The notes under the pieces: model-generated
Seen by the model: only the letters and a program-made list of their open reading frames with translations
What the model was told of the DNA's origin: nothing
Database searches by the model: none
Program-made: the position numbers and the translations under genes
DNA from: Frigoriflavimonas asaccharolytica
Lineage (GTDB): Bacteria; Bacteroidota; Bacteroidia; Flavobacteriales; Weeksellaceae
Direction of reading: 5' to 3'
DNA length: 35,515 bases
Assembly: GCF_013294015.1 (NCBI RefSeq)
Contig: NZ_JABSNO010000018.1
Location: 1-35,515 of the forward strand
Shown: positions 136 through 25,806 of the stretch, in pieces
How positions within the stretch are numbered: position 1 is the stretch's first letter
How the letters are laid out: each line of letters starts with the position of its first letter

Positions 136-513
136 ATGATTGTCATTGTAGATACAAACATTGTTTTTAGTACACTTTTGAACCCTAATTCTTTAATCGG
201 CGAATTGTTGATGAATGTTCAAGATGAAATTACTTTCGTTGCACCTGAATTTTTAATTGATGAAATTGAAAAATACAATGAGAAAATTGAGAAGCATTCC
301 AAACTTAATCAACATTCCATTAATTTATTAAAATCCTCAATTTGGAAAGTCATCAACTTTATGAGTGAAGAAAATATTTTCGAAGAAAATTGGAAAAAAG
401 CGTTTGAATTACTAAAAAATATTGATCCAAAAGACACCCCATTTTTGGCATTGGCTTTACAACTAAATTCTAAAATATGGACCGGTGATAAAAAGCTTAT
501 TTCTGGCCTCTAA
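136..513 (+). CDS. PIN-domain toxin-like RNase, C-terminally truncated
   Basis: The 125-residue product begins MIVIVDTN, the first acidic motif of the PIN fold. Further candidate metal-binding acids are E43 (PEFLIDEIEKY), D100 (DPKDTPFLALAL) and D118 (WTGDKKL). PIN proteins are Mg-dependent RNases, usually the toxin of a VapBC-like pair. No antitoxin gene lies in the 135 bases upstream, and the gene downstream is an unrelated convergent hydrolase. The reading frame ends at TAA 511-513, directly after the last acidic motif. If that codon is read through, 19 more codons follow to TGA 571-573, and they read like the usual C-terminal strand and helix of such proteins (KKNYHDYFLETKDVEKILL). The stop is therefore probably a recent nonsense mutation. 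The four acidic positions remain, so activity may persist. The PIN assignment is firm; the toxin role is inferred. Confidence 0.8.
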   Translation: MIVIVDTNIVFSTLLNPNSLIGELLMNVQDEITFVAPEFLIDEIEKYNEKIEKHSKLNQHSINLLKSSIWKVINFMSEENIFEENWKKAFELLKNIDPKDTPFLALALQLNSKIWTGDKKLISGL

Positions 514-564
514 AAGAAAAATTATCACGATTATTTTTTAGAAACAAAAGATGTAGAGAAAATT

Positions 565-1344
565 TTACTTTGACAAAAATTTTAAAACTTCTTTATTAAA
601 GTCTATCGGATTTTCTGCTTGCGTCCAATGTCCGGCGTTTTTTATTTCTACAATAGTTGAATTGGGAAATTGTTGCTTGATGACAAAATCGTCTTCTGGC
701 AAAATATAATTGGATTTTTCGCCTTTTAGAAACAATGTTTCTCCCGAAAAAATCCCAGCAGTAATTGCATTAGATACAAATTCTTCGTATTTTTCTGTTA
801 AAGTTTTGAGGTTAAATCTCCATTTTAAATTTTTATTTTCATCCCAAAAAAGACTTTTTGCAAGAAAATAAATGACAGATTTTTCTGGAATATATGCAGA
901 CAAAACATCTTCTACATCTCCTCTGCTTTTTATATTGGCGAAATCTACGGTATTTAAAGCTTTCAAAATTCCTTGATGATGTGGTGCATACGCTTTTGGC
1001 GCTATATCTACTACAATTAATTTTTCCACTTTTTCAGAAAATTTTATGGCAAATTGCATCACGGCTTTTCCACCGAGGGAATGGCCGAGAAGGTTGGCTT
1101 TTTCAATATTGTTTGCAGACATATAATTGAGAATATCACTCGCCAAATCGTCATGAGACATATTTTCTGAATGAAAACTTTTGCCATGATTTCTTAAATC
1201 CAGCAAATGAACGGGGAAAAATTCACCCATTTCTTTGCCAAAACTTCCCCAATTATCCAGCTTTCCAAACAAGCCGTGAAAAACTAAAAGTGGTGTGGTA
1301 GAATTTTGTTCTCCGTATATTTTTGAGTGTAAGATATTGTTCAT
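565..1344 (-). CDS. alpha/beta hydrolase, YbfF-like esterase
   Basis: The 259-residue product has the alpha/beta-hydrolase core: an oxyanion-loop HG motif (LLVFHGLFG, 20-28), DLRNHGKS at 49-56, the nucleophile elbow GHSLGG with Ser89, and a C-terminal catalytic His in NAGHWTQAENP. This layout matches the YbfF/esterase branch, which hydrolyses short acyl esters; the physiological substrate cannot be read from sequence. There is no signal peptide, so the enzyme is cytosolic. It lies 17 bp downstream of pdxJ on the same strand and is probably cotranscribed with it. Its last codons overlap the ancestral 3' end of the convergent PIN gene (to 573). Confidence 0.85.
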   Translation of the reverse strand: MNNILHSKIYGEQNSTTPLLVFHGLFGKLDNWGSFGKEMGEFFPVHLLDLRNHGKSFHSENMSHDDLASDILNYMSANNIEKANLLGHSLGGKAVMQFAIKFSEKVEKLIVVDIAPKAYAPHHQGILKALNTVDFANIKSRGDVEDVLSAYIPEKSVIYFLAKSLFWDENKNLKWRFNLKTLTEKYEEFVSNAITAGIFSGETLFLKGEKSNYILPEDDFVIKQQFPNSTIVEIKNAGHWTQAENPIDFNKEVLKFLSK

Positions 1345-1361
1345 TGCTATTTACTTTATAA

Positions 1362-2081
1362 TTACCATTTCGCCAATCTCTTCAAATACGCTTGCACCGT
1401 ATTTTCCATCCCCATATACAACGCCTCAGAAATTAAAGCGTGACCAATGGAAACTTCTAACAGATTGGGGATATTGTCTGCAAAATATTTTAAATTTTCT
1501 AAACTTAAATCGTGACCAGCATTAATGCCTAATCCATGTTTTTGGGCTTCTAAAGCTGTTTCTATATACAATTTTATCGCCTCTTCTTTGTTTATAGGAT
1601 AGTTTGTGGCGTAAGCTTCCGTGTATAATTCTATCCGATCGCAACCAGTTTCTTTGGCAAATTGCACCATTTCTGGGTTTGGATCTAAGAAAATAGAAGT
1701 TCGAATTCCAGCATTTTTAAATTCTGCAATCACATTTTGTAAAAATCCTAAATGCTTTTTGCAATCCCAACCAGCATTGGAAGTTATGGCATCTTCGCCA
1801 TCTGGAACCAAAGTTACTTGCTCTGGTTTTACTTCTAAAACCATATCTATAAACGGACGATGCGGATTCCCTTCTATATTAAATTCAGTTTTTACCAAAG
1901 GTTTTAGATCGTACACATCTTTTCTGGTGATGTGTCTTTCATCTGGTCTTGGATGTATGGTAATTCCTTGTGCACCAAATTCTTCCAATTTAATAGCAGC
2001 TTCTGTTACACTTGGTAGCAAACCGCCTCTCGCATTTCTAATGGTCGCAATTTTATTAATATTTACACTTAATTTTGTCAT
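1362..2081 (-). CDS. pdxJ: pyridoxine 5'-phosphate synthase
   Basis: PdxJ condenses 1-deoxyxylulose 5-phosphate with 3-amino-2-oxopropyl phosphate to pyridoxine 5'-phosphate, the last ring-forming step of the DXP-dependent vitamin B6 route. The 239-residue product is full length for the family. It starts MTKLSVNINKIATIRNARGG and carries the typical ITIHPRPDERHI segment (about 41-52), an EGNPHRPF segment and GINAGHDLSLENL near the C-terminus. It is a cytosolic TIM barrel. The gene sits 34 bp downstream of a mechanosensitive channel gene and 17 bp upstream of a hydrolase, all leftward, so a three-gene transcript is likely. Nothing links the three functions. Confidence 0.95.
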   Translation of the reverse strand: MTKLSVNINKIATIRNARGGLLPSVTEAAIKLEEFGAQGITIHPRPDERHITRKDVYDLKPLVKTEFNIEGNPHRPFIDMVLEVKPEQVTLVPDGEDAITSNAGWDCKKHLGFLQNVIAEFKNAGIRTSIFLDPNPEMVQFAKETGCDRIELYTEAYATNYPINKEEAIKLYIETALEAQKHGLGINAGHDLSLENLKYFADNIPNLLEVSIGHALISEALYMGMENTVQAYLKRLAKW

Positions 2082-2115
2082 TATTTTTAGTTAAAATAAA
2101 TTTTTAAAAATATTT

Positions 2116-3372
2116 CTATGCTTTAGAAAGTTGTACAACTTCTAGTTTAAATTCTTTGGAAGCCACCAAAAGATGATCAAAAATATCAGATTGTATGGCT
2201 TCATAGTTTTGCCAAACAGAATCATTGGTAAAACAGTAGATTTCTAAAGGCAAACCTTGCGGTGTGCTTTCCATTTGGCGCACCATCATATCTCCGGTTT
2301 GGTCTATGTGTTTATTATTTTTGATATAATTGAGGGCATAAATTCTGAACAAACCAATATTCGTTAATTGTTCACCATTCATAATATTCATATTGACGGT
2401 AGAATCTTGATTTTCTGGAAAAATATCTGGTCTTTTTTCTTCCATGTATTCTTTTAACAAATTGAGGTGCGATAACTTTTCAAATAAAATTTTATCTACA
2501 AATTGGAATGAATTGATGTTAAATACTATAGAACGTTTTATCCTTCTCGTATTTGTTTCGGACATTACTTGTAGATTTTTTATTTCTGTAGATAGCAAAT
2601 CGTAGGTTGGAATGGTAGAAATAGTTTTATCAAAACAAAGAATTTTTGTGGTTAATAGATTGATATCTTCTATAAAACCTTCTAGATTATATTTTGGAAT
2701 TCCTATCCAATCTCCTACTTTCAAATTTCTAGATGTAGCAACGTGCAAACCTGTGACGAAACCCAAAATTGTATCTCGGAAAACTAAAACCAAAACGGCT
2801 GTTATTGCTCCTAAACTTCCAAGAATAGTTCCGCTTTTTATCCCGAAAATAATACTGATTGCGATGATTGAGAATATAAAAAGTCCAAATATTTTGATCG
2901 TTTGTGATACAGCTCTTAAAGCTACAATTCTGTAAAAATCTTTTTTTGTTAAATAATAATATTCTAAAGCTTTCAAAAAACGGAATGTCATGCCTGCAAT
3001 TACTATTACGACGCCAATATCTACCAATTTATCTAAATAAAGATAGGCAGAAGGTCTTGTATAAAATATAGAAGCAAATGCAAATTTCCCAAAAATTAAT
3101 GCAATTAAATGTGCAATAGAATTGGTGATTTTTGATTTTTGAATGGCAACCAACATTGGAAATCTTTCTTCATCTACAAAATATTTAAAAGAAAAATATA
3201 AGAGAAATTTAAATATAGTATCTATTAAATATATTATGGCTACAAAAATAAGGAATTTGCCTACTACTAAAGATATAGACTGCCATCCATTCGCAACATT
3301 ATCTATCACGAATGAATGCCACAAATCGCTAATGTCTTGCAAAAAATCTTTTGTTTGTACTAATTCTTCCAT
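2116..3372 (-). CDS. mechanosensitive ion channel, MscS family (YbdG-like)
   Basis: The 418-residue membrane protein has about five predicted transmembrane segments in the first 190 residues. The MscS pore region and beta domain follow: GTILGSLGAITAVLVLVFRD, TGLHVATSRNLKVGDWIGIP, and a C-terminal alpha/beta domain. Size and layout fit the YbdG/MscM type with extra N-terminal helices rather than the three-helix MscS. It would act in the inner membrane, releasing solutes on osmotic downshift. A perfect TAnnTTTG box (3378-3385) ends only 6 nt before the ATG, so the transcript may have almost no leader. It is the first gene of a probable operon with pdxJ and a hydrolase. Confidence 0.9.
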   Translation of the reverse strand: MEELVQTKDFLQDISDLWHSFVIDNVANGWQSISLVVGKFLIFVAIIYLIDTIFKFLLYFSFKYFVDEERFPMLVAIQKSKITNSIAHLIALIFGKFAFASIFYTRPSAYLYLDKLVDIGVVIVIAGMTFRFLKALEYYYLTKKDFYRIVALRAVSQTIKIFGLFIFSIIAISIIFGIKSGTILGSLGAITAVLVLVFRDTILGFVTGLHVATSRNLKVGDWIGIPKYNLEGFIEDINLLTTKILCFDKTISTIPTYDLLSTEIKNLQVMSETNTRRIKRSIVFNINSFQFVDKILFEKLSHLNLLKEYMEEKRPDIFPENQDSTVNMNIMNGEQLTNIGLFRIYALNYIKNNKHIDQTGDMMVRQMESTPQGLPLEIYCFTNDSVWQNYEAIQSDIFDHLLVASKEFKLEVVQLSKA

Positions 3373-3377
3373 TAGTG

Positions 3378-3385
3378 CAAAATTA
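3378..3385 (-). promoter_or_regulatory. -7 box (TAATTTTG) very close to mscS-like start
   Basis: On the minus strand the box matches the Bacteroidetes -7 consensus TAnnTTTG at every fixed position and ends 6 nt before the ATG of the channel gene. Transcription would begin at or next to the start codon. I see no clear -33 element. Confidence 0.4.
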
Positions 3386-3507
3386 ACAATAATAAAATCT
3401 TTCTAACATTAAAAGAAAGGTTTTAATACTTTTTGTGAAATAAAATTTTTAAAATCACATCTTCAACAAAATTATATTCATTACTTTTAAAAAAAATTAA
3501 ACCAAAG

Positions 3508-3999
3508 ATGAATACGGAAATTTATATTGTGGTGAGTATTATTTTGTTAATAGCAGGAATGATCGGCACATTTCTACCTGTTTTACCAGGGTTACTACTC
3601 AGTTTTGCAGGTTTACTACTATACAAATATGGTGCAGGTGCAAATATTGGAATGATTTGGATATGGATTTTCGGAATTTTAACAGCAATTTCTGCAGTTT
3701 TAAATTATGTAATTCCCGCAAAAACCAACAGAAAATATGGCGGAACAAAATGGGGAAGCATCGGTTCTGTAATCGGAACTATTGTGGGAATGTTTTTCAT
3801 CCCAATACCTTTTGGTTTTCTTATCGGTATGTTTGCAGGGGTTTTCGTCGGGGAATTGCTGCATGATTCCTCAGATAGAAAAAAGGCTTTCAACTCTACA
3901 AAAGGTGCTTTGATAGGGTTTTTATACGGAACAGCTTTTAATCTAATGGTTGGATTGGCAATGTTTTTGGTTGTAGTGATAGATATTTTTAAAAACTAA
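3508..3999 (+). CDS. DUF456 family membrane protein
   Basis: The 163-residue integral membrane protein has glycine-rich helices typical of DUF456: an N-terminal IAGMIGTFLPVLPGLLLSFAG, a second hydrophobic pair near 50-70, a GTIVGMFFIPIPFGFLIGMF stretch with small-residue packing, and a last helix near 140-160. The family function is unknown. A near-consensus -7 box (TACTTTTA, 3482-3489) lies 18 nt upstream of the ATG. The following lipoprotein gene begins 3 nt after the stop, so the two are probably cotranscribed. Confidence 0.85.
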   Translation: MNTEIYIVVSIILLIAGMIGTFLPVLPGLLLSFAGLLLYKYGAGANIGMIWIWIFGILTAISAVLNYVIPAKTNRKYGGTKWGSIGSVIGTIVGMFFIPIPFGFLIGMFAGVFVGELLHDSSDRKKAFNSTKGALIGFLYGTAFNLMVGLAMFLVVVIDIFKN

Positions 4000-4002
4000 A
4001 TA

Positions 4003-4515
4003 ATGATGAAACATTTATTCATTGCTGCAATTTCTTATTTACTCATGTTCTCTTGCTCTAGCCAAGTGAAAAAACCTATAGCAAAAACAATAACTGTCGA
4101 AAATAATAAAACGCAGAATGAAAATGGTTCTCAAATACAAACTATGTTTAAATTAGATGAAGGTAAAACTCAATTTTTTAAAGATCAAGAAATGAATGTA
4201 ACTTTTGTGAAAATTGGCGAAGATAGCCGATGTCCGAAAGATGTAAATTGCATTTGGGCAGGAGTTGCTCTTGTAGAATTAAATGTTATGGGAACTTACA
4301 CCAGACCATCAACAATAAAACTTGCCACAATAGACGACGCAGCAAAAGGATATTCCCGATCCGCTATTTTTAATGGATACAAAATTTCTTTGCAAGAACT
4401 AAATCCTTATCCGGAAAATTCTGAAAGCAAAAAAGCAAATAGTGGAAAGAATAATATTACCATTCAAATTTTGAAGATAGCTGAAAGTGAGCTAGAAAAC
4501 TCAAATACATATTAA
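4003..4515 (+). CDS. putative lipoprotein of unknown function
   Basis: The 170-residue product starts with a lipoprotein signal: two Met, a Lys, a hydrophobic run and the lipobox LMFSC with lipidated Cys18. The second Met (4006) is an equally good start. After a low-complexity Lys/Thr/Asn linker a small beta-rich domain carries a notable SRCPKDVNCIWAG motif, whose two Cys could form a disulfide in the periplasm or on the surface. I recognise this motif from uncharacterised flavobacterial lipoproteins but know no function. The gene follows the DUF456 gene by 3 nt and converges on ung with a 2-nt gap, with no terminator hairpin between them. Confidence 0.7.
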   Translation: MMKHLFIAAISYLLMFSCSSQVKKPIAKTITVENNKTQNENGSQIQTMFKLDEGKTQFFKDQEMNVTFVKIGEDSRCPKDVNCIWAGVALVELNVMGTYTRPSTIKLATIDDAAKGYSRSAIFNGYKISLQELNPYPENSESKKANSGKNNITIQILKIAESELENSNTY

Positions 4516-4517
4516 TT

Positions 4518-5159
4518 TTACCAATTTATTTCAGATATTTTTTTAGACTTTAAATATTCATTAATTTTTGAAAAAGGTTTGCTGCCGAAAAATCCTTTGT
4601 ATGATGAAAAAGGAGATGGATGCGGCGATTGAATGATAAAATGCTTTGCTGTATCTATAAGCAAAGCTTTTTTTTGCGCAAATGCACCCCACAAAACAAA
4701 TACTACATCTTCTTTCTTCTCAGAAACTTCTTTAATAATGAAATCTGTGAAGACAGACCAACCTAAATTTTTGTGAGAATTTGGCGTGTGTGCTCTCACG
4801 GTAAGTGTACTATTTAAAAGTAGAACGCCTTGCTTTGCCCAATCTTCCAATTCATTTGTAGTTTTGATAAGCCCTAAATCTGAGGCCAATTCTTTATAAA
4901 TATTTTGAAGAGAAGGCGGAGTTTTCACCTCATTAGAAACAGAAAAAGACAACCCATTTGCTTGATTTTCATTGTGATAAGGATCTTGACCGATGATCAC
5001 TACTTTTATATCTTCAAAATCCGTTAATTCTAAAGCTCGGAAAATTTGTCTTTCGGGTGGAAAACACTTCGTAGTATTGTATTCTAATTCCACATTGTTC
5101 CACAAATCTTGAAAATATTGAGTTTCCTTGATAGGTGAGAGAATTTCTGTCCAATTCAT
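4518..5159 (-). CDS. ung: uracil-DNA glycosylase, family 1
   Basis: The enzyme removes uracil from DNA in base-excision repair. The 213-residue product carries the family-1 water-activating motif GQDPYH (Asp59), the uracil-pocket segment GLSFSV (69-74), LLLNSTLTVR, and the DNA-intercalation motif HPSPFS with His180. Length is normal. The start MNWTEILSPI is typical. It is a single gene, convergent with the lipoprotein gene on its left and divergent from the serine hydrolase on its right. Confidence 0.95.
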   Translation of the reverse strand: MNWTEILSPIKETQYFQDLWNNVELEYNTTKCFPPERQIFRALELTDFEDIKVVIIGQDPYHNENQANGLSFSVSNEVKTPPSLQNIYKELASDLGLIKTTNELEDWAKQGVLLLNSTLTVRAHTPNSHKNLGWSVFTDFIIKEVSEKKEDVVFVLWGAFAQKKALLIDTAKHFIIQSPHPSPFSSYKGFFGSKPFSKINEYLKSKKISEINW

Positions 5160-5248
5160 TTATTGCTAATTTTAATCGTTCACAATTTAAAAAAAATACT
5201 TTTATAATTTCAATTTCAGAATTATTAAATTCTAGATTTTAAATTCCT

Positions 5249-5256
5249 TATATTTG
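5249..5256 (+). promoter_or_regulatory. -7 box (TATATTTG) of the serine hydrolase gene
   Basis: The box is a perfect match to TAnnTTTG. It overlaps the TTG (5254-5256) that opens the longest possible reading frame, so that TTG cannot be translated from this promoter. The ATG at 5278 lies 21 nt downstream, a normal leader for these bacteria. No clear -33 element is visible. Confidence 0.55.
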
Positions 5257-5277
5257 AAATACTTTTTAAATAATATT

Positions 5278-6819
5278 ATGAAACGCTACTTTTCTATTCT
5301 TTTAGTTCTAATAACAACATTTTTTTTCGCTCAAATTGAAGACAAAAAATTAGATGATTTAATTAAAAACACTTTGACGACTTTTGATGTTCCTGGAATG
5401 TCTGTTGGGATTATTAAAGATGGAAAACTCATCTATGCAAAAGGATTTGGTGTAGCATCATTAACTACAAAAAAACCAATGAACGAAAATACTTTGGTGG
5501 GAATTGCTTCTAATTCCAAAGGATTTACGGCAACAGCTTTGGCAATTTTGGTAGATGAAGGAAAATTGAATTGGGAAGATAAAGTTTCTAAATTTATCCC
5601 AGAATTTAAAATGTATGACGATTATGCAAGCCAAGAAATTACGATAAAAGATTTACTTACACATCGTGCTGGTTTGGGACTTGGACAAGGAGATTTGATG
5701 TTTTTCCCAGAAGGTGGAACTTTGTCTGTGCAAGACATCATCAATAACGTAAAATATTTGAAACCAGACTATTCTTTCCGAGATGGTATGGAATATAATA
5801 ATGTATTATTCATCGTAGCTGGAGAAGTGATTAAAAGAATTTCTGGAATGGAATGGGCAGATTTCATCGAACAAAAAATCCTGAAACCTGTAGGTATGAA
5901 TTCAAGTTTTGGAAGCTACAATAGAGCAAAAAACATCAGCAATAAAATAGATGCACATGCACCAATAAACGGAAAATCCGTGCAAGTTCCGCATGATTGG
6001 AATGAAACTGCCAATGCAGCAGGTGGAATAATGAGCAATATAACAGATATGGCGATTTGGGCAGATTGCTTGATGAATAATTTCACCACAAAAGATGGTA
6101 AAAAATTAGTTTCAGATAAGCAAATTCAACAATTGTGGCAAATACAAAGACCGATAACAGTTGCAACAAAAAATCCGTACGACACTCATTTTTATGGTTA
6201 TGGTTTAGGTTGGTTTTTGAGTGATGTAAAAGGGCAATTTCAAGTGCAACATACTGGTGGATTGATAGGTACGGTTACACAATTTACACTTTTACCAGAT
6301 ATGAAATTGGGAATTATAGTATTGACGAACCAACAAAGTGGTGCAGCATTTAATACCATTACCAATACCGTAAAAGATTCTTATCTCGGAATAGAAGATA
6401 GAAATTGGTTGAAAAATTATGGAGAAAGAATGACTAATTATTTTGCAAAAATGGAGCAAGGAAAGCAGAAAGTATTTGCAGAATCTGCAGCATTTGCGAA
6501 AGATGGAAAATTTCCAAAGGAAAACCAATATCTGGGAACTTACAAAGATGCTTGGTTTGGAAATGTAGAACTAAAAAAAGAAAGTAAAACAGTAAGATTT
6601 TACAGCAAAACTTCGCCAAGATTGAAAGGGACGCTACTTCCCTATTCTGCAGATTCTTTTATTGTAAATTTTGATGATAAAAGTTATGATGCAGATGTAT
6701 TTATCACCTTTATATTTGATGAAAAAGGCAATGCAGCATCAGCGAAATTAAAACCAATTTCCGATGTAACCGATTTCAGTTTTGATTTTGAAGATTTAGA
6801 TTTGGTGAGGGTGAAATAA
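5278..6819 (+). CDS. secreted serine hydrolase, beta-lactamase class C/PBP-like with C-terminal DUF3471-type domain
   Basis: Starting at ATG 5278 gives 513 residues with a clean Sec signal peptide (MKRYFSILLV to FFFAQ). An in-frame TTG at 5254 is rejected because it lies inside the promoter. The catalytic domain has all three motifs of the class C beta-lactamase/D-Ala-D-Ala peptidase fold: S78-N-S-K81, Y173-N-N175 and HTGG at 325. A C-terminal beta domain (about residues 400-513) resembles DUF3471. Such proteins act in the periplasm or outside on peptides or esters; few are true beta-lactamases, and the substrate is unknown. The gene is monocistronic and converges on the ParDE-like locus. Confidence 0.85.
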   Translation: MKRYFSILLVLITTFFFAQIEDKKLDDLIKNTLTTFDVPGMSVGIIKDGKLIYAKGFGVASLTTKKPMNENTLVGIASNSKGFTATALAILVDEGKLNWEDKVSKFIPEFKMYDDYASQEITIKDLLTHRAGLGLGQGDLMFFPEGGTLSVQDIINNVKYLKPDYSFRDGMEYNNVLFIVAGEVIKRISGMEWADFIEQKILKPVGMNSSFGSYNRAKNISNKIDAHAPINGKSVQVPHDWNETANAAGGIMSNITDMAIWADCLMNNFTTKDGKKLVSDKQIQQLWQIQRPITVATKNPYDTHFYGYGLGWFLSDVKGQFQVQHTGGLIGTVTQFTLLPDMKLGIIVLTNQQSGAAFNTITNTVKDSYLGIEDRNWLKNYGERMTNYFAKMEQGKQKVFAESAAFAKDGKFPKENQYLGTYKDAWFGNVELKKESKTVRFYSKTSPRLKGTLLPYSADSFIVNFDDKSYDADVFITFIFDEKGNAASAKLKPISDVTDFSFDFEDLDLVRVK

Positions 6820-18436: not shown

Positions 18437-18538
18437 ATAAAAATAAAAAGGGAAAACCCGTCCTATTAAAATTTTTGCAGATACTTTGTATTGAAAACTT
18501 CAATCTGTTTTTGTATATTCACGAAACAAAGAATCTCT

Positions 18539-19603
18539 ATGAACAGCAACCCAGAATCTGATTTCAAAATTTCTAAAAAGAAGACCACCTATCCTATTAA
18601 TGAGCCTTTGCTTCAGTATTTGAAGATTTATAGTAGAACTTTTAAATCTCCAATTACTTACGAAGATTTACTACGGTTTACGGATAATTTCCCTATTCTA
18701 GACAAAGATGGTAAAGATACACTTTGGGAAGGGGTGATGTACAACTATCATGAAATGAACGAAATTCATGAAAATTTGATAAAAATTTACCAACGTTTAA
18801 ATTCAGATGGAAACGAAGATGCAATTGCTAACATGGTGGTAGACAGCATAGATTTTTGCACTTTCGGAAATTCTCATCCTTTTAGAATTAAAATCCGCAA
18901 CCAATTTAATGATAATCACGATTATTTTTACGTAAAAAAAGCCGACGCTTCTAGAATTTACGGGTTGGAATTAGAATACATACTTTCGCCAAACAGAATT
19001 AATTTTTTAGTCTATCAAAATACTTTAATTGAAGAGCATATTGCGGGAATTCCTGGCGATCTTTATTTAGAAAAATATTTGAATGAAAATACTGATAGAA
19101 TTCGGCTTGCAAAAGAGTTCGTGAAATTTAACGAACGTTGTTTTTTGAGACTTTTAGGCGATCAAAGAGCGTATAATTTTGTAATTGTTTTGACGCCGGA
19201 TTTTGATCAAATGCAATATAGGATCCGAAGTATCGATTTTGATCAGCAAAGCTATGAAGGCAAAATGAACTTATACAAGCCTCAATTTTTTAGAGAAAAT
19301 TTGGAATATGTGCAACTGGTTGCAAAAAATATAGATGAATCTTCTATACGGCAATACCAAAAAGAAGAAAGATCTTTACTAGCAAAACGCATGTTGGTGG
19401 GGAAAAAGAGATTAAATAGATTGATAAAAATAATGAAGAAAGACGAAATTGCACCATACGAAAAGATGGAAACTCTGAAAATGGAAATCTACGACTCTTT
19501 GAAAGACAATAGTTTGAAAAACTGTGAATCTATGGGCGATATTGTAGAAGCCATCATCAATTTTACGTTGCGCAATTATCAAGATTCTATAATCGGTAAA
19601 TAG
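18539..19603 (+). CDS. uncharacterised protein with kinase-fold-like motifs
   Basis: From ATG 18539 the product has 354 residues (a TTG at 18491 would add a hydrophobic Cys-rich leader and is less likely). I know no family name. The order of motifs resembles a protein-kinase-like fold: a strand with paired lysines (YFYVKKAD, K133-K134), a following Glu-rich helix (YGLELEYIL), a hinge-like FLVYQNTLIEEHIAG, a catalytic-loop-like LLGDQRAYNFVIV (D208, N213), and a metal-loop-like IRSIDFDQQSYEG (D233, D235). A basic helical tail follows. A glycine-rich P-loop is not evident. It is cytosolic, with no signal or membrane helix, and stands alone between divergent and convergent neighbours. The kinase-like reading is inference; the ORF itself is solid. 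Confidence 0.75.
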   Translation: MNSNPESDFKISKKKTTYPINEPLLQYLKIYSRTFKSPITYEDLLRFTDNFPILDKDGKDTLWEGVMYNYHEMNEIHENLIKIYQRLNSDGNEDAIANMVVDSIDFCTFGNSHPFRIKIRNQFNDNHDYFYVKKADASRIYGLELEYILSPNRINFLVYQNTLIEEHIAGIPGDLYLEKYLNENTDRIRLAKEFVKFNERCFLRLLGDQRAYNFVIVLTPDFDQMQYRIRSIDFDQQSYEGKMNLYKPQFFRENLEYVQLVAKNIDESSIRQYQKEERSLLAKRMLVGKKRLNRLIKIMKKDEIAPYEKMETLKMEIYDSLKDNSLKNCESMGDIVEAIINFTLRNYQDSIIGK

Positions 19604-20122: not shown

Positions 20123-20620
20123 TTATTTCAACGCGTTCAAAGCGTTTTCGTAATTTGGTTCTTGTCCAATTTCTGGAACTTGTTCTGTATACAAAATTTT
20201 ATTGTTTTCATCTAAAACGATAACGGCTCTGCTCAAAAGACCTTTAAAACCAGAATCCGTAATCTCTACACCAAAATCTTGCCCGAAACTACCACGGAAA
20301 TCTGATAAATTGGTAACATAATCCAAACCTTCTGCCGCACAAAAACGCTCTAGTGCAAAAGGTAAATCTTTGGATACATTGATGACAACAGTATTTTCTT
20401 CATTGCCCACTTTTTCATTAAATGCTCTTGCAGATGCTGCACAAACTCCTGTATCAATGCTTGGGAAAATATTTAAAATTTTCTTTTTTCCAGCAAAATC
20501 TTGCATGGTTTTTTCTGTTAAATTTTTATCTACCAAATTAAAATCCATTGCTTCAGATCCAACTTCTGGTAGATTACCGATGGTATTGATCGCGTTTCCG
20601 CCTAATGTAATATTTGCCAT
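20123..20620 (-). CDS. tpx: thiol peroxidase (atypical 2-Cys peroxiredoxin)
   Basis: Tpx reduces hydrogen peroxide and alkyl peroxides with thioredoxin as electron donor. The 165-residue product has the peroxidatic Cys60 in FPSIDTGVCAASARAF and the resolving Cys94 in LERFCAAEGLDYVTNLSDFRG, the spacing typical of Tpx. It starts MANITLGGNAINTIGNLPEVG. It has no signal peptide. A TATTTTTA element about 25 nt upstream may be the -7 box. It is a monocistronic gene with its own terminator. Confidence 0.96.
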   Translation of the reverse strand: MANITLGGNAINTIGNLPEVGSEAMDFNLVDKNLTEKTMQDFAGKKKILNIFPSIDTGVCAASARAFNEKVGNEENTVVINVSKDLPFALERFCAAEGLDYVTNLSDFRGSFGQDFGVEITDSGFKGLLSRAVIVLDENNKILYTEQVPEIGQEPNYENALNALK

Positions 20621-20669: not shown

Positions 20670-22994
20670 TTATTTTCTAGAATTAAAATATTCTTTAAAA
20701 GAATTGCAAGAACTCATTAAATCCTCATAATCGCTGGATGATTTTTTTAATTCTTGATAAAATTTATTTTTGGAAAATCTCTGTTCAATGTATTCATCAT
20801 CATGCCAATATCCATACATTTCATTTGCGTTATAATCTAATTTATTATTTTCACATCTTCCTTGCATCCTCAAACATAACATTTGAAATTTCTCTGATTT
20901 TGAATTTTCCTTAGCTTTTCCATAATAGTATTTAGCAAGATTGTTGCTATTAAATTCATCATCGTCATTTTGAAGAGAATAATCTGTAATCATGGTCCAG
21001 GAATATCTACGCATCATCCAAGCGCTTCCATATTTAGACATATTGTAGTAGCAATTTGCCACCAGAAAATTATAACAATCACGGTCTTTTTCTGCAGGAT
21101 TATTCGCTTTGTTGATGTATTCTACCAATTTTTTGGTGATGGTCAATTTATTTAATCTAAAACTTTCTTTCTCTTCTATAAAATTCGGTGTGTACTTAAG
21201 GTTGTAAAACGGATTTTCATCAAACACAAATTGATTTTTAAAATTATTATCGGCAGTGTTTTTTTCCCACAAAACGTCTTGAGATTCCAAATATCCCTTA
21301 TCTAATTTTTGGAAAGATTGAAGGGCAAGATTTAATTTATTTTCCCTAATATATTTAGTGCCCAGCAAATCTTGTAGAGAATTGATTTCTGTATCATCAA
21401 TCTTATGCAATCTGTAATAAAAACCATCCACAAATTTTTTCTGATTTTTTAAATTATTGATGAAATATTGCAATTGCATTGGCGTGTATATCGCATCTAT
21501 ATAAGAGAAATAATCGTAAAATAAAATGCCATACGTTTGGTTTTTATTTTGCAAAGATTTAAAATAAATAAAATTCTCGTCATAAGAATTAGAAGAAAAA
21601 TCTTGCAATGCAGAATACAAAAATGCAGCATCATTTGTATTTCCTAGATATTCCAATTCTCTACCAATGGCAAATAAAAATTGTTTATTGTCCTTATTTT
21701 TTAAAATAATTTGCTGTACTTCATCAGATAATTTTGCATTTCCAATAGTTTGATTTGCTGTTAGATTCAGGGCTTTTAGTAAATCTAAATTTTTATCGTT
21801 TTTGTAGTCCTTTCTTTCTTCAATTGTAGAAATTAATTGCAAACTTTCCTTATAATTTTTTGTCATAAAGAGCAATTCTGCCTTTGCATGAAGCCAGAAT
21901 TCTGGATTATTTACTGTAGAAATATCTGCAGTATTTATAAATTCAAGCAATTTTTGAGCGTAGGCTCTATCAATTAGAACTCTATCCAACACGTTTTGTG
22001 TAGATTGTTCTTCATTTTCATTACCAGAATAATAATCTGAAAATAAAGTATAGTAAGGTGTGAAAATCCAATTTTCAAGTTTACTCACTTCTCTGAAAAG
22101 TAAAAAACTTAAGGCATCAGAATTTGGATTAGCTTGATACATTTCCTCAATATTTTCAATGTTTTTTTCAGGGTTGTACAAACTGTACATCATCAAAATT
22201 TGAGATTTCTCGACACTATTTTTAGCATATTTTAAAACCTCGTCTTTATTAGTACTCGAAGAAAAATATTGCCAAGAAACAAATCTTTTTTCCGGGCATG
22301 CATCAAAAACCTTAGCGAGATAGTAATTTTTTAATGGCGCATTTTGTTCAACAATTGCTCGAAAATACAAAGCCCAATAATCAATAACATCATTCTGCTT
22401 TTTAATATTGAAATTATCCGAGTAGATTTTCCGAATTTCATCCTCGTTTTTATTATAAAACGCCAATCTCATTGCCAAAAATGCATATCTTTTTTTAATG
22501 TTTGCATTCTTTGATTTTTTAGCAAAAGTGACTGCATTTTTCAGTAGATTTTTTCTTTTTACCGTTGATGTGCTGTCTTCTCTTTCCCAAGGATCATCTT
22601 GCCAAGTATTGAAATACTCGCAGTTTTTTGCAAATTTTAGATATTGTATAGCTTCTTTATCTTTATTTTTAAATAAAAATTTTAGAAATAAATTGTTGGA
22701 TTCTGGTTTGATGTCAGAGTATTCGTACTTCTTTAAAAAGAAAGAAATTTCTGATACCGAAACTCTATTTTTACAATAATTTTTCCATAAAATCTCATTT
22801 TTAAAATTTGGAACTGAATCTTCTGAATTTGGTGAGAAACTATTTAAGGAATAATAAAATGAATTATATTGTTGAAACCCAAAATTATTTCCGTTGATGA
22901 AATTCATCCGTACATCATCACCAGATAGATAAAATCCGCAGGCAAAAGTAAAACTACTTAGTAAAACTGCTATAAAAGCTACTAATTTCTTCAT
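20670..22994 (-). CDS. large exported helical-repeat protein of unknown function
   Basis: The 774-residue product has a Sec signal peptide (MKKLVAFIAVLLSSFTFACG) and no later membrane segment, so it is periplasmic or extracellular. The Cys in FACG could also be a lipid site, but the context is a poor lipobox. The mature chain is rich in Tyr, Asn, Lys and aromatic residues and looks like successive helical hairpins (for example YKESLQLISTIEE, LNLALQSFQKLDKGYL, AKYYYGKAKENSKSEKF), as in TPR/Sel1-type solenoids, though I see no clean repeat consensus. Its start lies inside the end of the upstream lipoprotein gene (41-nt overlap, different frame), so both are made from one transcript and probably act together. 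I know no named family. Confidence 0.72.
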   Translation of the reverse strand: MKKLVAFIAVLLSSFTFACGFYLSGDDVRMNFINGNNFGFQQYNSFYYSLNSFSPNSEDSVPNFKNEILWKNYCKNRVSVSEISFFLKKYEYSDIKPESNNLFLKFLFKNKDKEAIQYLKFAKNCEYFNTWQDDPWEREDSTSTVKRKNLLKNAVTFAKKSKNANIKKRYAFLAMRLAFYNKNEDEIRKIYSDNFNIKKQNDVIDYWALYFRAIVEQNAPLKNYYLAKVFDACPEKRFVSWQYFSSSTNKDEVLKYAKNSVEKSQILMMYSLYNPEKNIENIEEMYQANPNSDALSFLLFREVSKLENWIFTPYYTLFSDYYSGNENEEQSTQNVLDRVLIDRAYAQKLLEFINTADISTVNNPEFWLHAKAELLFMTKNYKESLQLISTIEERKDYKNDKNLDLLKALNLTANQTIGNAKLSDEVQQIILKNKDNKQFLFAIGRELEYLGNTNDAAFLYSALQDFSSNSYDENFIYFKSLQNKNQTYGILFYDYFSYIDAIYTPMQLQYFINNLKNQKKFVDGFYYRLHKIDDTEINSLQDLLGTKYIRENKLNLALQSFQKLDKGYLESQDVLWEKNTADNNFKNQFVFDENPFYNLKYTPNFIEEKESFRLNKLTITKKLVEYINKANNPAEKDRDCYNFLVANCYYNMSKYGSAWMMRRYSWTMITDYSLQNDDDEFNSNNLAKYYYGKAKENSKSEKFQMLCLRMQGRCENNKLDYNANEMYGYWHDDEYIEQRFSKNKFYQELKKSSSDYEDLMSSCNSFKEYFNSRK

Positions 22995-23991
22995 TGCTGT
23001 AATTGCTTAATTGGTTTTCGTCTAAATGGAATAAGCTAACTGTGATTTCTTTATCCATTCTCAGCTCATTTTTCAAGATGGAAATTGCCTTATTTATTGT
23101 GTTTGCATCTATTTCCTCATATTTAATTTTGTCGCCCACTTTCAAATATGTTTCATAGTCTATTGCGGTATCTTTTGTAACTTCATACCACAAAGGTTTA
23201 ATTTTCTTCATGCTTTTTTGAAATTCTTTGCCCGTGTAAATTATTTTTTGAAATTGATTATTTTGATACAATTGTGACCAAGAATATAATGGCAGCGCAA
23301 CATCTAAATGCAAAGGATAATTTTGCTTTCCACTGAGATAACTTTTTAATTCATCTAAATCTAGAATAGAATTTTTCGCAGAATTCTCCAGAGGATTGAT
23401 GAGATTATAGCACATCAATGTAGCTTTATCAACCGGCGGAACACCCATTTTGTCGGGATATTTGTAGGGATATAAACGCAGTGTGCAAGAAAGAGATTTA
23501 GATGAAACTTTTTTCAATTCTTTCAAAAAATAAAAATAATTGTCTTTGGTAGATTCCGTCCAATCGCAATCCATTTGAAATTCTTTTATCTCTAGAGAAT
23601 CAAGCCTTTCTTTTGTGTATTTATTGATTAAAAAATTAACATCGTCCGCTAATTGTACCAATTCTGCTTTTGTACTTTTTTTGAAAACGATATTTTTCAG
23701 ATAAACCGTTGGTATTATTTCATACTCAAACTTATTATCATTACAATAATTGTTTGCGCTAAAATTAGTTTTTGCGATTGGAAAATTCCCTAAAGCATCA
23801 CTATAATCTACCTCAAAAAATTTTACATACATTTTTTGAATATTCTGTTCGTCTGTAATTTCTTTTTCCTTATCAGAAAAATAAGAATCTGATTTCCAGT
23901 AATAGAACGCCGGAATTACTTTTTCAACTTTGCTTTCGCAAGAATTGAAAAGTAGAATAGTAGGAATGATGAGGAAAAGAAATTTCTTCAA
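22954..23991 (-). CDS. lipoprotein, putative TIM-barrel (DUF3142-like?), TTG start
   Basis: No ATG is available at the 5' end. The longest frame opens at TTG 24024, but a perfect -7 box (24022-24029) covers that codon. TTG 23991 gives a proper lipoprotein signal (KKFLFLIIPTILLFNSC) with lipidated Cys18 and a product of 346 residues. The body suggests a TIM barrel: FQMDCDWTESTKDNYFYFLKEL (acidic strand end), LSCTLRLYPY, PPVDKATLMCYNL and LHLDVALPLYSW succeed each other like beta strands of glycosidase-type barrels such as GH18 or DUF3142. The DxD and later Asp/Glu could be catalytic. The family link is recalled, not tested. The end overlaps the next gene by 41 nt. Confidence 0.68.
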   Translation of the reverse strand: MKKFLFLIIPTILLFNSCESKVEKVIPAFYYWKSDSYFSDKEKEITDEQNIQKMYVKFFEVDYSDALGNFPIAKTNFSANNYCNDNKFEYEIIPTVYLKNIVFKKSTKAELVQLADDVNFLINKYTKERLDSLEIKEFQMDCDWTESTKDNYFYFLKELKKVSSKSLSCTLRLYPYKYPDKMGVPPVDKATLMCYNLINPLENSAKNSILDLDELKSYLSGKQNYPLHLDVALPLYSWSQLYQNNQFQKIIYTGKEFQKSMKKIKPLWYEVTKDTAIDYETYLKVGDKIKYEEIDANTINKAISILKNELRMDKEITVSLFHLDENQLSNYSNEEISSFYSSFTK

Positions 23992-24381: not shown

Positions 24382-25806
24382 CTAATTTTGAATTTTCAGT
24401 CCAAGTATTTCTCCCTCTTTAATCACAAATTTTCTGGCGGCAATTTTTTCATTGGGAATTTCGCCATCTAAAATTGCTTCTTTCACTTTCTCCTTCAAAA
24501 TTCCAATTTCTCTACCAGGATTTAGATTAAATAATTCCATAATTTCTTCCCCAGAAATTGGCGGTTGGAAATTCCTCACTTGATCTTTCTCTTCTACTTC
24601 CTTTATTTTTTCTGCTACGTATTCAAAATTTTGTTTAAATTTCTCCTGTTTTTTAGAATTTTTGGTCGTGATGTCCGCTTTATTTAAGATAAAAAGATCT
24701 TCTAAATCTTCGCCAGCATCAAAAAGCAATCTTCGCAATGCAGAATCGGACGTACCATCGTCTATCAAAGAAATTGGTCTAGAAGAAAGTTTCACCATTT
24801 TTTGCACATATTTCATGTCGCTTCCTAAAGGTAATTTCAATTGATAAAAAATAGATTTCACCATTTTTGAGCCCAAAAATTCGTGACCGTGGAAACTCCA
24901 ACCAATGCCATCTATAAATTTTTTGGTAGGTGCCTTTCCAACATCGTGAAGCAATGCAGCCCATCTTAACCAAAGGTTTTCTGTATTTTCACAAATATTA
25001 TCTACCACTTCCAAAGTATGCCAAAAATTGTCTTTGTGCGTTTGTCCTTCTTTTTCTTCAATTCCTTTTAACGCGGTAAGTTGGGGTAAAAATAAATCTA
25101 GCAATCCTGTTTCTTCTAGTAATTTCAAACCAATGGATGGTTTTTTGGAAAGCATAATTTTATTAAATTCAACCATAATTCTTTCCATAGAAACGATGCG
25201 GATTCTTTCTGCTTCATTTTTAATCGCTTGAAGAGAATTTTCTTCAATTGTAAAATTTAAAGTTGAGGCAAAACGGATGGCGCGCATCATCCTCAAAGGA
25301 TCATCAGAATAGGTTTGAGAAGGTTCTAATGGCGTTTTTAGAATTTTTTTCGTTAAATCTTTTTGCCCTTCAAAAGGATCTATCAATTCTCCAAAATTTT
25401 CTGAATTTAAAGAAATTGCCAATGCATTGATGGTAAAATCTCGGCGTTTTTGGTCATCATTTAATGTTCCAATTTCTACCGATGGGTTTCTGCTATCTTC
25501 CGAATAGCTTTCTTTTCTGGCGCCCACAAATTCTAAATCTAAATTTTTAAATTTAATCATTGCGGTACCATAGGTTTTGAAAATACTTACTTTTAAATTA
25601 GGATCTAATGCTTTTCCCACGGCTTTTGCAAGATCAATTCCACTTTGTTCTGTGACGAAATCTATATCTGTAGGTTCTTTTCTGTCTAGTAATAGATCTC
25701 TCACAAAACCACCGACAATATATACGGATTGTTTGTTATCTGCAGCAACAGCAGAAATAGTTTTGAAAAGTTTGAAATTTTTATTTTGTGTAAGGTTGAT
25801 AGTCAT
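24382..25806 (-). CDS. cca: CCA tRNA nucleotidyltransferase / HD-domain protein
   Basis: The enzyme adds or repairs the 3'-CCA of tRNAs. The 474-residue product has the class II nucleotidyltransferase head with VGGFVRD (31-37) and the metal-binding DID (47-49), followed by RRDFTINALAI, the poly(A)-polymerase-type RNA-binding neck (DPLRMMRAIRFA), and a C-terminal HD domain (LLHDVGKAPTKKF near 285). The HD-containing form may also have phosphohydrolase activity. A perfect -7 box (TATCTTTG, 25829-25836) lies 22 nt upstream of the ATG. Class II CCA enzymes and poly(A) polymerases are hard to separate by eye. Confidence 0.92.
   Translation of the reverse strand: MTINLTQNKNFKLFKTISAVAADNKQSVYIVGGFVRDLLLDRKEPTDIDFVTEQSGIDLAKAVGKALDPNLKVSIFKTYGTAMIKFKNLDLEFVGARKESYSEDSRNPSVEIGTLNDDQKRRDFTINALAISLNSENFGELIDPFEGQKDLTKKILKTPLEPSQTYSDDPLRMMRAIRFASTLNFTIEENSLQAIKNEAERIRIVSMERIMVEFNKIMLSKKPSIGLKLLEETGLLDLFLPQLTALKGIEEKEGQTHKDNFWHTLEVVDNICENTENLWLRWAALLHDVGKAPTKKFIDGIGWSFHGHEFLGSKMVKSIFYQLKLPLGSDMKYVQKMVKLSSRPISLIDDGTSDSALRRLLFDAGEDLEDLFILNKADITTKNSKKQEKFKQNFEYVAEKIKEVEEKDQVRNFQPPISGEEIMELFNLNPGREIGILKEKVKEAILDGEIPNEKIAARKFVIKEGEILGLKIQN

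Follow-up and report, generated by a model that had tools for sequence, protein, structure and literature searches.

A 35,515-nt stretch of DNA from Frigoriflavimonas asaccharolytica (Bacteroidota, Weeksellaceae; assembly GCF_013294015.1, contig NZ_JABSNO010000018.1), hereafter the window, encodes on its minus strand two overlapping genes, the upstream one for a lipoprotein with a predicted TIM-barrel fold (the barrel) and the downstream one for an apparently exported protein with a predicted alpha-solenoid fold (the solenoid). The two-gene module is real and old, and the pair very probably works as one cell-envelope machine because the two genes are almost always inherited together. The predicted fold of the barrel is that of glycoside hydrolase family 18 (GH18), but its conserved residues indicate that it is not a standard GH18 enzyme: a pocket at the strand ends is strictly conserved while the GH18 catalytic glutamate is gone. 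The module is undescribed in the open-licence PubMed Central (PMC) literature that was searched.

Co-inheritance and overlap of the two genes

Profile searches were run against 296 Bacteroidota genomes, with up to seven barrel and up to three solenoid candidates scored per genome. The barrel was detected in 37 genomes and the solenoid in 36 of these 37, against 0 of the 259 others (Fisher p = 1.4e-45 with kinship ignored), and a by-eye count of the two lists gave equal numbers of barrel and solenoid loci in 35 of the 36 genomes. One locus (L074/L103) runs off the end of its contig. Together with the conserved overlap described below, this pattern bears out the tight coupling that the original prediction had read from the window alone.

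In the window, the barrel gene occupies 22954..23991 (-) and the solenoid gene 20670..22994 (-). They share 41 nt (22954..22994), as originally described, so that the 3' end of the barrel gene, stop codon included, covers the start and signal-peptide codons of the solenoid in a different frame. A barrel scan of the genome_contigs collection yielded 49 loci, all from Bacteroidota judging by their titles, and the solenoid lay directly behind the barrel in 49/49, being cut by the contig end in L019. Both frames were conserved as protein at every locus, with best-segment identities of 48–71% for the barrel and 38–56% for the solenoid at 48 loci and lower ones, 32% and 23%, in L052. The overlap measured 41 nt at 44 of the 49 loci, 38 nt in L049, L051 and L052, 44 nt in L018, and 44 or 41 nt in L025 depending on the choice of start; the relative frame was the same in all 49. 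For L050, where the barrel is frame-shifted, the overlap was derived from coordinates. More distant relatives had overlaps of 4 to 86 nt with script-chosen starts, and the length equalled 2 modulo 3 in all overlapping pairs compared except L100 (4 nt); since it is constant modulo 3, the frame has been inherited while codons come and go.

The genes are separate in six sequences (L002, L061, L063, L064, L065 and L067), with gaps of 39–312 nt. These six form one clade (100/100 support), and their barrels are about 12 residues shorter at the C-terminus, stopping close to the point at which an overlap would begin. The tree was rooted at its midpoint, so that any direction read into the change between overlap and separation is conditional on that root. 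In the same tree, the window barrel falls in a group of 11 with Chryseobacterium (99/99 support). The window genome itself has a second, diverged barrel-solenoid pair on contig 22 (L113 3293-7060, also L002) with a 312-nt gap, which adjoins a transposase-like open reading frame (ORF) and a ribosomal-protein-like ORF, and Flavobacterium reichenbachii (L033 2708-9346) has two tandem copies of the entire pair. Flavobacterium hydrophilum and F. phragmitis are also carriers of the pair.

The module seems to comprise two genes and no more. Across 50 oriented neighborhoods (the 49 loci and the window), whose neighbors were annotated only in part, the barrel occurred in all 50 and a closed solenoid ORF in 49, while the next most frequent family reached 15; no third gene family occurred in more than 15/50, and no recurrent neighbor tied the pair to polysaccharide or peptidoglycan genes. 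No barrel match was found in plasmids.

Structure and conservation of the barrel and the solenoid

The likely start of the barrel is TTG 23991, the one chosen in the original prediction, which gives a 345-aa protein opening with a lipobox signal peptide (MKKFLFLIIPTILLFNS followed by Cys) and resembles the starts of its relatives. A mechanical ORF list instead placed the start at TTG 24024, giving 356 aa; residue numbers below follow this longer ORF, and 11 is to be subtracted for the TTG 23991 start. The lipobox cysteine (23938..23940, -) would carry the lipid anchor at a mature N-terminus reading CESKVEKV, and in relatives a Cys likewise follows a hydrophobic stretch. By script, a lipobox-like Cys stood at the equivalent place in 77/78 distinct barrels. 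The exception (L081/L097, genome G190) has no signal peptide, its barrel being fused behind a membrane domain of about seven hydrophobic segments on a simple scale, for which there was no Pfam match. Because a membrane domain replaces the lipid anchor in this sole exception, the tether seems to matter, and the fusion may hint at the membrane setting of the module. In both records (L081 1426-3936, -; L097 4425-7049, -), the fusion is followed by an overlapping solenoid gene.

An AlphaFold2 model of the barrel built from 31 sequences had a predicted local distance difference test (pLDDT) score of 88.3 and forms an eight-stranded beta/alpha barrel. Foldseek (best E 4.9e-10) and VIA-align both ranked GH18 proteins first. 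All 50 listed entries scored Z 18–20 against the model, with 10–16% identity, and nearly all of them covered about residues 33–356. The SleL structures 4s3j_A and 4s3k, annotated as a spore cortex-lytic enzyme, reached Z 20.0 (for 4s3j_A, root-mean-square deviation (rmsd) 4.2 over 277 aligned residues, 13% identity) and were tied at Z 19–20 with bacterial, plant and insect chitinases and chitinase-like proteins. A BFVD search returned GH18, lysozyme and other barrel folds. The lipid-anchored, glycosidase-type barrel proposed from the letters alone is therefore supported in both fold and anchor.

Searches of the window proteins against Pfam, NCBIfam, PADLOC and PDB sequences gave chance-level matches only, as did profile searches of PDB sequences. 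The GH18 model PF00704 gave one weak match among 31 barrel relatives (E 0.044) and, in the window genome, one stretch below threshold that lies apart from both barrels.

GH18 enzymes carry the motif DxxDxDxE, with the catalytic Glu on strand beta4, and a beta6 motif MxYD. The barrel shares with GH18 (PF00704; SleL and class V chitinases) the TIM-barrel fold over the whole domain, as well as an Asp pair on beta4 and a Tyr on beta6 in the corresponding strands, but in place of DxxDxDxE its family reads xxxDCDW(T/S). In the window, DCDWT (residues 152–156; 23557..23571, -) is found where predicted strand beta4 (148–153) ends, and LMCYN (residues 203–207; 23404..23418, -) where predicted strand beta6 (200–204) ends, the place of MxYD. 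Among 78 distinct barrels, D152, C153, D154 and W155 were identical in 78/78, including both residues of the DxD that the original prediction had singled out, and residue 156, which strand order and motif spacing place at the GH18 Glu, was T in 71 and S in seven, never E. E148, R183, L203, M204, Y206, P245, W249 and D335 were also identical in 78/78, E303 was kept in 77/78, N207 in 72/78 and C205 in 65/78, and most of the invariant residues lie at or just past predicted strands.

Lectin-like proteins of the GH18 fold have lost the catalytic Glu and lack hydrolase activity, and we take 1hjx and 1zbv, both among the structural matches of the barrel, to be of this kind. The window barrel resembles them in having the GH18 fold with this Glu lost, and differs in being bacterial and lipid-anchored, in its co-inherited solenoid partner and in the Thr/Ser at the Glu position.

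The solenoid gene starts with ATG and encodes 774 aa with a signal-peptide-like N-terminus. Its AlphaFold2 model (29 sequences, pLDDT 83.4) is an alpha-solenoid built nearly entirely of helices apart from isolated bridges, in agreement with the helical solenoid of 774 residues first suggested. No PDB match to this model reached E 0.001, and the best structural match (Z 10.2, rmsd 10.6) may, for repeat proteins, reflect just a common arrangement. Matches to TPR_2, a tetratricopeptide repeat (TPR) family, were found in 7/29 relatives (best E 3e-6) and 4/17 divergent relatives, and none in the window solenoid. Cys19 (22938..22940, -), directly after the signal peptide (ACGFY...), and Cys763 (20706..20708, -), close to the C-terminus, were invariant in both the 29-row alignment and the 17-row divergent set; they could form a disulfide, or Cys19 could be lipidated.

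The pair is flanked in the window by a gene with a poly(A)-polymerase/CCA-adding-enzyme domain (24382-25806) and a redoxin gene (20123-20620). A scan for promoters and terminators was not clearly above shuffled sequence (29 promoter-like sites against 24.6, sd 4.7; one terminator against 1.5). Elsewhere in the window, a 370-aa ORF with a TTG start (18491-19603, +) had no significant Pfam match and adjoins an AHSA1-domain gene.

DUF3142 proteins and their partners in Proteobacteria

The Pfam model PF11340 (DUF3142, a family of unknown function) matched a barrel-family protein in Taibaiella with E 0.00245, below its cut-off. In the window barrel, and in the window genome as a whole, it had no match (cut-off 30 bits), and its best score in barrel relatives was 19.6 or 18.0 bits, likewise short of the Pfam cut-off. 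It matched 5/21 divergent barrels, more than any other Pfam family did, all of them weakly (best E 0.0033). An hhalign comparison of the divergent barrel set with DUF3142 gave Prob 90.5 and E 1.3e-6 from the lipoprotein start to strand beta5; with an earlier barrel alignment the match was weak (P 0.012 and 0.021), so that only the divergent set was significant. Profile-level homology is clear from this comparison, by which the barrel is a remote relative of DUF3142.

When 3285 six-frame segments were searched with an eight-protein DUF3142 profile, DUF3142 proteins or fragments came first and were followed by seven ORFs, all of them barrels, with weak values (E 0.37–4.4 at a nominal million sequences); a second DUF3142 profile added eight further ORFs, again all barrels and equally weak. 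The reverse search, with a barrel profile on DUF3142 proteins, reported none, and a scan of viral_contigs with a DUF3142 protein confirmed nothing.

In 395 Bacteroidota genomes, PF11340 had three matches, of which one was above the cut-off, in a genome that may hold foreign DNA. From there, tblastn led to 13 plasmid records of Proteobacteria, eight of which were read. A large protein adjoined DUF3142 in 7/8 of these loci, by annotation in L088, L089, L092 and L094 and by translation in L090, L091 and L095. In the eighth (L093 3720-4460, a Burkholderia ubonensis plasmid), DUF3142 lies in pieces in different frames downstream of an insertion sequence, and this locus was dropped. A protein of about 690–725 residues precedes DUF3142 in L088, L089, L090, L091, L094 and L095, the two genes overlapping by 31 nt in L089 and L094 as annotated, and in L090 if started alike, and being spaced by 7 nt in L088 and likely L095 and by about 3 nt in L091. 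In Xanthomonas (L092), DUF3142 instead comes before a 721-residue protein with ACGPEFP after its signal peptide.

DUF3142 proteins thus resemble the barrel in having DFDA (DHDC in L092) opposite DCDWT and in adjoining a large helical-looking protein. They differ in that no Trp follows the DxD, in being shorter in 6/7 loci (about 235–260 aa; 398 aa in L092) and in following their partner in 6/7 loci, whereas the barrel precedes its solenoid. The Providencia partner (L089) matches the NCBIfam family T4P_rel_PA5441 (NF053584) with E 3.2e-239. In this locus (288-4510), the PA5441-like gene and DUF3142 stand directly behind SPFH/Band-7 and NfeD genes.

Members of the PA5441 family and the L092 partner are, like the solenoid, large proteins (about 690–725 aa) with a signal peptide followed by Cys and weak TPR matches, and they stand beside DUF3142, but they have no significant similarity to the window solenoid. 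Tests for homology of the solenoid with the PA5441 family and the L092 protein were not significant: hhalign gave P 0.048 and 0.029 with the 29-row alignment and 0.013 and 0.015 with the divergent set, where unrelated comparisons run for reference gave 0.31, 0.17 and 0.71. In one divergent-set comparison, the C-terminal 300 columns were collinear. The two proteobacterial partner types did not match each other (P 0.17), solenoid profiles of each branch failed to retrieve the other from the fetched loci, and NF053584 matched neither the window solenoid nor appeared among the families listed for the 29 relatives.

The literature found on these proteins helps little. One paper models PA5441 on the TPR protein PilW and calls it a putative pilus protein (PMC8516228). 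In two others, PA5441 appears in a protein-abundance table from a study of surface-adhering cells (PMC5541441) and is linked to outer-membrane vesicles (PMC9993114). DUF3142 came up in one paper in the open-licence PMC literature searched, listed beside a hypothetical protein (PMC10040529). The likeness of PA5441 to PilW may be a generic TPR resemblance.

Candidate functions of the pair

We propose that the pair is a self-contained envelope module, a reading to which we give a chance only just short of even. The overlap would couple translation so that barrel and solenoid are made together, and the two would assemble into a complex on the envelope side of a membrane, where the solenoid would serve as a scaffold or as an arm that binds clients and the barrel would hold a sugar chain. 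The barrel might bind an N-acetylated glycan, either peptidoglycan or a secreted or surface glycan, without ordinary chitinase-type hydrolysis, or might use a different carboxylate pair. A binding role is suggested because the GH18 Glu has given way to Thr/Ser in a pocket that otherwise keeps invariant residues, among them the Asp pair and the beta6 Tyr. Of the surface polysaccharide or peptidoglycan system of enzyme and scaffold imagined in the original prediction, the two-protein system has held, and a polysaccharide or peptidoglycan role is plausible; an enzyme is so far not supported, given the Thr/Ser in 78/78 barrels and the lack of any third gene family in more than 15/50 neighborhoods. 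That prediction had staked itself on co-conservation of the genes and on the lipoprotein forming a barrel, and both were found.

The same pocket could also be read as belonging to a new family of active glycoside hydrolases or transglycosylases, in which carboxylates such as D152/D154, E148, D335 or E303 replace the Glu and the solenoid positions the barrel on its polymer. Some families do use an Asp pair with substrate-assisted catalysis, and E148, D152, D154, R183, Y206, D335 and the nearly invariant E303 mostly lie at or near strand ends, with SleL among the tied best structural matches. We nevertheless regard this as unlikely, though a serious contender, as the residue in place of the GH18 acid is never acidic, no third gene family recurs around the pair in more than 15/50 neighborhoods and no known family was matched above cut-off. 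A role away from sugars altogether, with the barrel as a scaffold lipoprotein, its pocket binding a peptide or cofactor, and the pair aiding assembly or quality control of envelope proteins, draws on the large helical TPR-like partner and on the Providencia DUF3142 partner, whose family includes the PilW-modelled PA5441. It is rather improbable in our judgment: the solenoid is not significantly similar to the PA5441 family, and a PF00263 search of the window genome found no secretin, which makes a type IV pilus role very unlikely here.

Several observations weigh against the proposed envelope module. A GH18-like fold is no proof of a glycan ligand, since TIM barrels serve many chemistries; the window barrel had no PF00704 match with E <= 1; and residue 156 was equated with the GH18 Glu by strand order and motif spacing. 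Kinship among the genomes makes the Fisher value overstate their independence, and the limited number of candidates per genome means that absences are not proof. The one genome with a barrel match and no solenoid (G230) holds a barrel fragment, and a second search found no solenoid there either; in another (G156), the single barrel detected sits at the end of contig 51, and contig 11 (~1400-6000) carries what look like three solenoids in tandem. Linkage is not absolute either: two barrels have no adjoining solenoid (L098 of G178 and L084 of G296), and these genomes each hold a solenoid elsewhere without a barrel in the fetched flanks (~1.3 kb). Finally, there is the clade with separate genes. 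Taken furthest, such points would explain the co-occurrence by common vertical descent and a chance overlap, with no functional link between the genes: related genomes inherit the same genes, one clade lacks the overlap and unlinked copies exist. This is highly improbable, because presence is patchy (37/296) yet matched genome by genome, the overlap frame is the same in all compared overlapping pairs but one, and in another phylum a large protein neighbors DUF3142, the two genes standing in the opposite order in 6/7 loci.

More broadly, we tentatively suggest, as a view somewhat more likely to be wrong than right, that this is a widespread, undescribed envelope module in Bacteroidota and, via DUF3142, in Proteobacteria, in which a tethered GH18-fold protein with a re-tooled site (DCDWT) would act on or sense a specific glycan only with an obligate solenoid from the overlapping gene. 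With these results, two orphan genes become a single unit open to testing, to which a fold, a conserved pocket, an anchor and a partner can be assigned. The unit is also linked to DUF3142, whose Providencia neighbor is labelled 'type IV pilus related'. The conserved out-of-frame overlap, together with the separate-gene clade, offers a natural case for studying translational coupling of complex subunits. If the barrel does bind or cut a glycan, the pair would represent a new, partnered class within the GH18 superfamily.

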